A stretch of 64,000 nt of DNA from Candidatus Poribacteria bacterium. GTDB lineage: Bacteria > Poribacteria > WGA-4E > WGA-3G. Location: contig JAJEIE010000009.1 of NCBI GenBank assembly GCA_022827625.1, positions 62,001-126,000 on the forward strand. Direction: 5' to 3'. Made by a program: the position numbers and the translations under genes. Positions 27,341 to 63,933 of this stretch are shown piece after piece (position 1 is the first letter of the stretch; each line of letters starts with the position of its first letter). Under the pieces are notes generated by a model. The model did not search any database and was not told where the DNA came from. It saw nothing but the letters and a program-made list of their open reading frames with translations.

Positions 27341-27378
27341 ATGGCAGTCAGCAATCAGCAATCAGCGGTCAGCGCGTG
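27341..27378 (+). repeat. Heptamer-phased repeat
   Basis: GGCAGTC-AGCAATC-AGCAATC-AGCGGTC-AGCGCGT directly after the flippase stop. Confidence 0.7.
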
Positions 27379-45869: not shown

Positions 45870-46616
45870 TTACCGCGTGAAAATCTGTCCGCGTGTATAC
45901 GAACCCGCATCAGAAGCGAGAAATGTGAGTACCCGTGCAACACCCGCCGGGTCCCCGAGCGATTTGCGAGCATCGGCGACAGCAGCATCCGGATCTCGGC
46001 CTTCGCGCCTTGCCGACTCTGCGATCTGCCCTAACTTCAACGGCGTCGCAAGGCCCCCCGGACAGATGGTATGGATACGGATTGGCGAAATCTGGTTTTC
46101 CACCACCATTACAAGCCCATTGACGCCACCTTTGCTCGAACCGTAAGCAACCGAAGAACTCCCACCGCGCACCCCTGCACCTGACGCAATACACAGGATA
46201 ACACCGCCTTCACATCCTCTCATTATCGGCACAGCATGCTTGAGGGCGAAAAAGGTACCTTTCAGGTTCACGTCAATAACCGAGTCAAAAGTCGCCGTCT
46301 CAAACTCATCAATACGGACGTTCGGCCCACGTAGAATACCCGCTGCCGTCACCAAGATATGAATACCGCCAAATTCTGTATTAGCAGTTTTCATCAGGTC
46401 TGCTACCTCAGCTTCGACCATAACATCCGTACGTAGAAACCGCGCAACGCCACCCACTTCACGAATCGCACGGACCGTTTCCTCAGCATCTGTCTCATTA
46501 ATATCACCAAAGACAACCTTCGCGCCTGCTCTGGCATATTCGATCGCCGTTGCTGCACCAATGCCAGTAGACCCGCCAGTAATCACAGCGACTTTATCAT
46601 TAAGTCGAATATCCAT
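45870..46616 (-). CDS. Short-chain dehydrogenase/reductase (classical SDR)
   Basis: A 248-residue Rossmann enzyme with the cofactor motif TGGSTGIG (13-20), the AAG core (91-93), Asn117, Ser145, and catalytic Tyr158-x3-Lys162 in YGSSK. An Asp at the end of the second strand (FGDIN) favours NAD over NADP. It is probably a sugar or polyol oxidoreductase or a FabG-like enzyme; substrate unknown. GGGAG lies before the start. It diverges from the selenoprotein gene. Confidence 0.9.
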   Translation of the reverse strand: MDIRLNDKVAVITGGSTGIGAATAIEYARAGAKVVFGDINETDAEETVRAIREVGGVARFLRTDVMVEAEVADLMKTANTEFGGIHILVTAAGILRGPNVRIDEFETATFDSVIDVNLKGTFFALKHAVPIMRGCEGGVILCIASGAGVRGGSSSVAYGSSKGGVNGLVMVVENQISPIRIHTICPGGLATPLKLGQIAESARREGRDPDAAVADARKSLGDPAGVARVLTFLASDAGSYTRGQIFTR

Positions 46617-46782
46617 ATTTCTTATCTCCCTCGCACCACTTAGATTTTGTAGAAAAGATTATAAGTGGAATGCGTTCACAGCGCAAGCCTTTTGTTTCCA
46701 TCTAAAATAACCTGAGATTCGGGAACCACGCCGATGCAAACTAACAGTTTACGCGACAAAACGCTTCCGAATCGCGAAAAAT

Positions 46783-46811
46783 TTGCAATTTTTCAGTATG
46801 TATGATAGAAT
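46783..46811 (+). promoter_or_regulatory. Sigma-70-type promoter for the SelW-like selenoprotein
   Basis: TTGCAA (46783-46788), 17 bases, TAGAAT (46806-46811), 68 bases before the start codon. Confidence 0.55.
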
Positions 46812-46878
46812 TTTAAAAGGAAGAATCGAAATTCGCTTTGACAGGTAACGTCAAGAAATGAATCAGGAGGAGAAACCC

Positions 46879-47112
46879 ATGGAAGTCAGGATTGAATACT
46901 GCACCGCTTGAAACTACCAACCACGGGCAGCCAGTTTGGCAGATGCCTTGAAACAGAAATATGGTGCCGGGGTTATAACTGTCGATTTAATTCCGGGTAG
47001 CGGCGGGGCTTTTGAAGTTTCGTTAAACGGGACACTGCTCTATTCAAAATTAAAAACTCGAGAGTTTCCGACGACAGAGCAGATAACAAGTGCTATAGAC
47101 GCAGCGGCGTAA
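46879..47112 (+). CDS. SelW/Rdx-family selenoprotein (UGA 46909-46911 read as selenocysteine)
   Basis: A 77-codon frame with AGGAGG eight bases before ATG. Codon 11 is TGA and the frame then runs without a break to TAA 47110. Reading TGA as Sec gives MEVRIEYCTAUNYQPRA, the CxxU redox motif of SelW/Rdx proteins. The rest is family-typical: ASLADALKQKYG, IPGSGGAFEVSLNG, LLYSKLKTREFPT. Length fits the family. These thioredoxin-fold proteins act in thiol redox; bacterial substrates are unclear. A hairpin lies at 46927-46947. A random stop inside such complete homology, exactly at the catalytic position, is unlikely. A plain stop codon would leave a meaningless 10-residue peptide. Confidence 0.93.
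46909..46947 (+). promoter_or_regulatory. Sec codon plus SECIS-like hairpin in the SelW-like gene
   Basis: UGA (46909-46911) is followed by GGCA-GCCA-GTT-TGGC-AGA-TGCC (46926-46947): an upper stem of four pairs, a three-base bulge on the 3' side and a lower stem of four pairs. Read as GCC-AGTTT-GGC, the apical loop has G at its second base, 23 bases after the UGA. That fits the known bacterial rule of an apical-loop G about 16-37 bases from the codon. Confidence 0.7.
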
Positions 47113-47173
47113 CGGCTATCGGCGGTTGGCTATCGGCGGTCGGCTCTGACCGCTGACTGCTGACCGCTGACTG
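47113..47173 (+). repeat. Heptamer-phased repeat between selW-like gene and lpxI
   Basis: CGGCTAT-CGGCGGT-TGGCTAT-CGGCGGT-CGGCTCT and then GACCGCT-GACTGCT-GACCGCT-GACTGTT, nine seven-base units filling the whole gap between two convergent genes. Confidence 0.8.
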
Positions 47174-47977
47174 TTATTCCACAGCAACAAGCGCGATCTT
47201 ACACCGATCCGCTTCCTTGACAAGCACATCAACGTCCATAACAAAAGTGCGTCGTGCTTCCACCGCAAGCACACTCGCTTCAACCTGATGCAACACCTTT
47301 AGCGTTTGCATACCGACCGTCGGCACATCAATACGGAAATCGTGGTGCCCCGCCGATGCCTTCGCAACCACAACTCCTTTCTTTCCCAAATTGCCACCCC
47401 TCTGAATCGTTACATCCGTCCCTTCAATGGCTTCCATAGCAAGCACAATCTGATTTTTAACGACAACCGTCTGCCCGATATCCATATTTGCTATCTGGCG
47501 AGCAGTACGAATACCGAGTTCAACATCCGCCCATTGATTTGCTGTAGGATGTCGCGCCGTTAAAACGCCGGGTTGTAGGAGAAGATGGTGGAGATACTGA
47601 TCTTGGGTGAGGACTGTCAGCCCAACAGATTCAAGATAGGCAAGTGCTGCGCTAACAATAGCGGAGGGTCTCTTACGTCGGTTTTGTACTAAAATCCTGA
47701 TAGTGGTCGCATCAATCTGAAATGGACGGAGTAGAATATTTTTCTCGACTTTCCCGATAATTACAACCTCTTTTACATCTGAATCAAGAAGTGTCCGGGC
47801 AATCTTTTGAATCTGACCAACGCCATAGGTATGAAGCTCATCTGTGATCCCAGCAAAACGCTGCGCGTCGGACTTCGTAATTTGGATGATAACAGGTTGT
47901 CGTTCATGAGCAACAGCGGCACGTGCCAACAGCACCGGCAGCTCGCCCGCGCCTGCAATAATACCGAGTTTTTCCAC
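47174..47977 (-). CDS. lpxI: LpxI-type UDP-2,3-diacylglucosamine pyrophosphatase
   Basis: LpxI hydrolyses UDP-2,3-diacylglucosamine to lipid X and UMP in lipid A synthesis, replacing LpxH in many bacteria. The 267-residue product begins MEKLGIIAGAGELPVLLARA, the family's N-terminal signature, and contains VGQIQKIARTLLDSDVKEVV and the C-terminal VGMQTLKVLHQVEASVLAVE segment. It is the last gene of the minus-strand lipid A run, 38 bases after lpxA. Confidence 0.93.
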   Translation of the reverse strand: MEKLGIIAGAGELPVLLARAAVAHERQPVIIQITKSDAQRFAGITDELHTYGVGQIQKIARTLLDSDVKEVVIIGKVEKNILLRPFQIDATTIRILVQNRRKRPSAIVSAALAYLESVGLTVLTQDQYLHHLLLQPGVLTARHPTANQWADVELGIRTARQIANMDIGQTVVVKNQIVLAMEAIEGTDVTIQRGGNLGKKGVVVAKASAGHHDFRIDVPTVGMQTLKVLHQVEASVLAVEARRTFVMDVDVLVKEADRCKIALVAVE

Positions 47978-62823: not shown

Positions 62824-63933
62824 ATGAAACAGATACACGTATGTCTCGCTTTAGCACTCTTGCTATTCGCGGGACTGAATTGTGGAACAGAAAATCCGGT
62901 TACAGAGGAAACAGTAGACACCTCCGTAGTCGAGACACCAACAGGCACACTACGTGGAGAGGTGCAATCCGTTGAAGGTGTCCTGATTCAGGTACGCCTG
63001 CTGAAAGACGGACAACTCTTAACGCAAACTGAGACCGAGGCAATCTACGAACTTGGATCGCTTGAAGCCGGGAATTATACCTTGCAAATATCAGCGAAAG
63101 GTTATGAAACCACAGAGATTAATGTCACAGCTATCGCTGGACAAACCGTTTCCGTAGATAAGGTAACACTCGTTGCATTGGCGACTCCCGTCTCGCATCT
63201 ACGCGGAATTCTAACCGATGTAGCAACCGGCGCACCGATCTCCGAAGTGCATCTTCAACTCACCGATAAAACCGGTAAAATCTACGAAACACTCACAACA
63301 GCAGCGGGTGCTTTCACCTTTGAAAACCTACCGGTAGAACAAGCTTTCGCCTTGAAAATTGAACACGCGGATTATGAAAACACCGAGGTTGCTGTGCAAC
63401 CGATACCCGCCGCTAACACATTTGAACTCAACCTCAAACTCATCCCGCTGCCGGAAGTAGAAGAATTGGATCCCGGTCAAGGTCTGAGTATTGGGAGCCA
63501 AGCCCCCGACTTTGAACTATCTGATGGCAACGGCAAACTGCACACGCTCGGCGATTATATCGGCAATAAAAACGTGGTGCTCGGCTTCTTCCGCGGTGTC
63601 TGGTGACCCTTCTGCAGAGATCAACTCGTTGAGTTGCAAAAGAACTATGCAGCGATTCAAGCCGCTGGCGCAGAACTCGTCGGAATCAGTTCTGATGGTG
63701 AAGCCGCAACCCGGCAGAACGTTCAAAACCAAGGGCTCAAGTTCACGCTCCTGTCCGATCCAGACGTAGCAACGATTTCTGACTATAACGTCGTCGATCT
63801 GTTTAATCCGAGAATCGCGCGTACGTCATACTACGTTCTCAAGAAAGATGGAACAATCACTTGGAAGTCTATTCACAATAAGGCTGATAAAGTACCGATG
63901 GCACAAATCCTCCAAGAATTAGGTAAACTTTGA
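62824..63933 (+). CDS. Lipoprotein peroxiredoxin-like selenoprotein (UGA 63604-63606 read as Sec), with two carboxypeptidase-regulatory-like domains
   Basis: A 370-codon frame interrupted only by TGA at codon 261. The lipoprotein signal ends LLFAGLNC (Cys20). Two beta-sandwich domains follow (about 40-115 and 122-195), with GNYTLQISAKGYETTEINV and FAFENL-like text typical of carboxypeptidase D regulatory domains. The redoxin/AhpC domain (about 215-369) starts GSQAPDFELSDGNGKLHTL. Its catalytic motif reads FFRGVWUPFCRDQL, where related proteins have RGxWCPFCRxQL. The frame then continues VELQKNYAAIQAAGAELVGI and TLLSDPDVATISDYNV to TGA 63931. A hairpin follows the UGA at 63622-63636. A stop here would discard most of the redox domain, including the catalytic pair. 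Confidence 0.92.
63604..63644 (+). promoter_or_regulatory. Sec codon plus SECIS-like hairpin in the peroxiredoxin gene
   Basis: UGA (63604-63606), then CAACTC-GTT-GAGTTG (63622-63636), a perfect six-pair stem with G first in the loop at 63628, 22 bases after the codon. Read as CAACT-CGTTG-AGTTG it has a five-base loop with G second. TTCT (63610-63613) can pair with AGAA (63641-63644) as an outer stem. Confidence 0.7.

Follow-up and report, generated by a model that had tools for sequence, protein, structure and literature searches.

A predicted SelW-like selenoprotein gene with a conserved in-frame TGA and a covarying SECIS hairpin in Candidatus Poribacteria

We detected an intact 77-codon SelW-like gene in a 64,000-nucleotide stretch of a Candidatus Poribacteria contig, called the window here (Table 1). 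Its frame holds one TGA, at codon 11, and the 77-residue read-through product is MEVRIEYCTAUNYQPRAASLADALKQKYGAGVITVDLIPGSGGAFEVSLNGTLLYSKLKTREFPTTEQITSAIDAAA. The Shine-Dalgarno sequence, the ATG, the 77 codons to TAA and the single TGA are all as the original prediction had described them, and a GGAGG-type ribosome site stands at the equivalent place in the Poribacteria relatives of the gene. An ATG at 46858 was rejected as the start, with AGGAGG lying between 46858 and 46879 and conservation starting at 46879. Stop-to-stop open reading frames give only a 58-aa fragment starting with TTG at 46936, so that stop-terminated gene finding misses or truncates the gene, as had been anticipated. The neighbours on either side, encoding a short-chain dehydrogenase (SDR) and LpxI, are both on the minus strand, and the SelW-like gene therefore stands alone as a monocistronic unit. 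Across the genus (L023-L054), almost every locus whose flank is long enough keeps the order of its flanking genes, namely the SDR gene, lpxI, lpxA and lpxC, and the distant Poribacteria loci L055-L057 are without SDR/lpx neighbours in their 3-kb flanks.

Table 1. Features of the SelW-like locus and of the second predicted selenoprotein gene (positions in the window)
Feature	Position	Strand	Evidence or remark
Short-chain dehydrogenase gene, upstream neighbour	45870-46616	-	
Sigma-70-like site, TG before second hexamer	46782-46811		consensus match only
Shine-Dalgarno AGGAGG	46865-46870	+	sequence; 8 nt upstream of the ATG
ATG of SelW-like gene	46879	+	sequence
SelW-like selenoprotein gene (predicted), 77 aa + TAA; Rdx family, CxxU active site	46879-47112	+	PF10262, TIGR02174, NF041051, AlphaFold, purifying selection on either side of TGA
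In-frame TGA, codon 11, predicted Sec (CTAU)	46909-46911	+	TGA in 95/96 aligned loci; the family's conserved Cys/Sec column
Bacterial SECIS hairpin (predicted)	46925-46948	+	predicted fold, covariation, scripted bSECIS criteria, depleted synonymous diversity
TAA stop of SelW-like gene	47110-47112	+	sequence
lpxI, downstream neighbour	47174-47977	-	
Second selenoprotein gene (predicted)	62824-63933	+	TGA at codon 261 (63604-63606) in GVWUPFC; final stop also TGA

Directly 3' of the gene lies a GC-rich, hairpin-capable imperfect repeat (CTGACCGCTGACTG..., 47113-47173). A related copy was found at 27345-27372, where none is expected by chance, and the repeat possibly belongs to a family of intergenic repeats in this genome. 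Searching the whole window against Rfam gave no match at gathering scores; weak microRNA matches on the repeat, from a permissive scan of the locus, were well below gathering scores and were taken as chance.

The family search with the read-through translation gave PF10262 (Rdx) at E = 1e-24 (87 bits against a cut-off of 22.6, model positions 1-73 of 74), with no second Pfam family at E <= 1. TIGR02174 (SelT/SelW/SelH) matched at 6e-21 (74.5 bits, cut-off 34.2) and NF041051 of NCBIfam at 3e-25 (88.3 bits, cut-off 88), and all PDB sequence matches at E < 1e-3 were SelW-related proteins or MIEN1. The AlphaFold model, built from 31 sequences, has a mean pLDDT of 93.6, and its best structural match in the PDB is a SelW-related protein (TM 0.86-0.93); Foldseek ranked the SelW-related crystal structures (2fa8, 2ojl, 2obk, 2p0g) first, then MIEN1 and mouse SelW (2npb), then thioredoxins. 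The modelled CxxU lies between strand 1 (residues 2-8) and helix 1 (14-28), and in C8-T-A-U11 the Cys8 and the Cys/Sec11 columns are invariant in the 31 sequences. Broadly similar TGA-read-through frames number 196 in the window, 16 of them with a CxxU or UxxC motif; against this background the Rdx match and the genus-wide conservation demonstrate that the SelW-like frame is not a chance one. The proposed assignment to the SelW/Rdx family, with Sec in CxxU, is supported by the family searches and the PDB matches.

The gene was found in 54 of 60 relatives from several families of the class, each match with exactly one internal TGA. The nearest loci belong to Candidatus Poribacteria MAGs (up to 99% identity), protein identity within the genus is about 81-99%, and homologues with the TGA extend to Gemmatimonadota, Acidobacteriota, Chloroflexota, Planctomycetota and one Rossellomorea. 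TGA occupies codon 11 in 95 of 96 aligned loci, a set that includes repeat fetches of some genomes, and the remaining locus, from a distant alphaproteobacterium, has TGC (Cys). pN/pS is 0.13 before the TGA and 0.13 after it. Compared across these genomes, the TGA at codon 11 is a selected codon and not an accident. A lone TGA in an otherwise open frame has, in a single genome, the look of a recent nonsense mutation, so that a Cys-type SelW pseudogene or a sequencing error could be suspected; the identical TGA in every Poribacteria homologue and in several phyla, the constraint downstream of it and the conserved SECIS that follows it make this extremely improbable, and conservation of the codon and of the downstream protein already refutes it. 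An ordinary stop or a frameshift in sister genomes had been named as the finding that would speak against a selenoprotein, and the sisters carry TGA, with no sense codon, other stop or frameshift.

We additionally detected a putative SECIS hairpin, which was absent from the original prediction, 21-22 nt downstream of the TGA. It has an upper stem at 46930-46940, an apical A-G-U-U-U loop at 46933-46937 and a lower stem with a 3-nt bulge, and it is predicted to fold at -10.5 kcal/mol within the 45 bases that start with the TGA. The loop GUU (or AGUUU) fits the published bSECIS model, and all 70 distinct TGA homologues pass scripted criteria drawn up after the model in PMC13188914 (core stem, loop G then G/U, MFE <= -7.5). 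Taken by itself, the window hairpin shows no significant gain in stability over shuffles (z -0.86), and its stability does not count among the evidence; the SECIS is supported by covariation and by codon conservation. The apical GCC-AGTTT-GGC is replaced in other phyla by GCG-AGTCT-CGC, ATC-GGTCT-GAT and others, with changes on both sides of the stem in five of the seven pairs across 36 sequences, counts that do not represent independent events. The covariation score of 0.280 compares with 0.106 +/- 0.018 in shuffles, none of 500 reaching it, and sliding the stem partners by 1-3 columns lowers it to <=0.108. Change is often synonymous, with the covarying columns 24/30 and 21/33 falling on the third position of their codons, and so compensation acts at the RNA level. 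Within the genus, pS is 0.13 in codons 15-25 vs 0.50 in codons 26-70, about fourfold lower inside the hairpin, and no synonymous variation was found at P15, R16, A18, S19 and L20 in 38 sequences. The Poribacteria SelW SECIS carries its 3-nt bulge in the 3' arm, and its lower stem pairs shifted partners, in contrast to the continuous stem of most other phyla.

The genome from which the window comes (5.02 Mb, 41 contigs, 95% complete, about 4% contamination) encodes the Sec machinery that the original prediction had expected elsewhere in it. Profile scores are 348 bits for SelB, 595 bits for SelA and 362 bits for SelD, and tRNA-Sec (78 bits, ARAGORN anticodon TCA) adjoins selB; these genes are located on contigs other than that of the window, and the genome is a binned one with the contamination given above. 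SelD (L019:1399-2442 (-), contig C40) is itself a selenoprotein, with KCAGU read through TGA. Absence of selB and tRNA-Sec from a closed genome would have counted against Sec insertion, and both are present, above curated cut-offs, in five single-contig relatives (G005, G010, G021, G028, G044). This complete decoding system and the conserved selenoprotein genes support the prediction that Poribacteria use selenocysteine. A genome-wide reassignment of TGA to sense, for instance to Trp, would likewise keep the frame open. TGA ends 9 of the 43 long open reading frames in the window; one of these nine encodes Sec in the second selenoprotein gene and the rest are ordinary stops, which argues against global reassignment, and the second selenoprotein gene itself terminates in TGA. 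In the Cys homologue a Cys rather than a Trp stands opposite codon 11, and tRNA-Sec and SelB are present. Reassignment, which is vanishingly improbable, is already refuted by the ordinary TGA stops.

The locus is almost certainly a monocistronic SelW-like (Rdx) selenoprotein gene of Candidatus Poribacteria, its UGA being predicted to be decoded as Sec via SelB and the hairpin; this reading, a hidden SelW-like selenoprotein with a CTAU motif, is that of the original prediction, and the family, the machinery and the TGA of the sister genomes favour it. Genome comparison establishes the gene, the conserved TGA, the SECIS, the decoding machinery, the family and the fold as predicted from sequence. 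SelB binds the SECIS and brings Sec-tRNA-Sec to the UGA (PMC13188914). Here SelB with Sec-tRNA-Sec would bind the hairpin just 3' of codon 11, the UGA would be decoded as selenocysteine, and translation would then continue as far as the TAA. This would yield a small thioredoxin-like protein whose Cys8-Thr-Ala-Sec11 motif sits in the loop behind strand 1, most probably a cytosolic thiol/selenol oxidoreductase, judging from family and motif. We infer Sec insertion in the cell and this redox role, the latter because the SelW-like family is predicted, not experimentally characterised, in prokaryotes (PMC13188914). The nearly absent Cys-codon homologues (1 of 96 loci) suggest that Sec itself is selected, and SelW-like proteins rarely have Cys forms in Sec users (PMC1794560); both points stand against the idea that the UGA is read only in part, or as Cys under selenium shortage, with the working protein often a Cys form or truncated. 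In favour of that idea, UGA is rarely decoded as Sec in full, and other systems have been reported to insert Cys at Sec-UGA. We consider it very improbable for this gene, and decoding as Sec is the preferred reading.

The second selenoprotein gene of the window is predicted to encode a lipoprotein fused to a UxxC (UPFC) AhpC/TSA domain, with a SECIS-like hairpin. The AhpC-TSA match (4e-28) follows two carboxypeptidase-regulatory-like (CarboxypepD_reg-like) stretches, and visual inspection pointed to a possible lipoprotein signal. Among the relatives with a long match to the redox domain, nearly all retain the TGA, and alignment showed 20 loci in which UPFC is accompanied, about 22 nt further downstream, by a GCAACTC-GGN-GAGTTGC-like hairpin. 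Stop-terminated calling truncates this gene at 63606. Elsewhere in the same genome we noted three AhpC/TSA-type matches, each interrupted exactly once by an internal TGA (C14:171152-171664, C11:101939-102394, C33:194380-194754), which on that basis are probably further Prx-like selenoproteins.

SelW-like (SELENOW-like) proteins are a predicted selenoprotein family in bacterial surveys (PMC1794560, PMC9312934, PMC13188914) and the most abundant selenoprotein family in ocean metagenomes (PMC2398784). SelW-like CxxU selenoproteins are long known in bacteria, many marine ones among them, and the Poribacteria gene adds a member to a known family with a known mechanism. It shares with bacterial SelW-like proteins (PF10262/TIGR02174) the CxxU after the first strand, the thioredoxin-like fold, the single Sec and the SECIS just after the UGA, and differs in its host lineage, Poribacteria. 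The Cys-type SelW-related structures (2fa8, 2ojl, 2obk, 2p0g, 2oka, 3dex) have the same fold and family at 27-33% identity and a TM-score of about 0.85-0.93, and in the alignment with 2fa8 the Sec position is Cys (YCTQC). Mouse selenoprotein W (2npb) shares the Rdx family, CxxU and the thioredoxin-like fold at 28% identity and a TM-score of 0.72, whereas the eukaryotic SECIS lies in the 3' UTR (PMC13188914).

A text search of the selenoproteome review PMC13188914 did not find Poribacteria named, and a literature search on Poribacteria and selenocysteine yielded passing mentions of selenocysteine only, so that the lineage may be undescribed in its selenocysteine use. Whether Poribacteria form a selenoprotein-rich lineage that is largely undescribed, with a Sec-form SelW in nearly every genome among several selenoproteins, including the lipoprotein CarboxypepD_reg/UPFC AhpC/TSA fusion, is in our estimate evenly balanced. 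If true, a cell-envelope selenoprotein built as this fusion would have a new architecture. The covarying SelW SECIS hairpins across several phyla offer a clean comparative case. Poribacteria are a sponge-associated bacterial lineage, and stop-terminated calling, which misses or truncates their predicted selenoprotein genes, matters for the annotation of sponge-associated genomes. Selenocysteine use by Poribacteria would also bear on selenium use in sponge symbioses.
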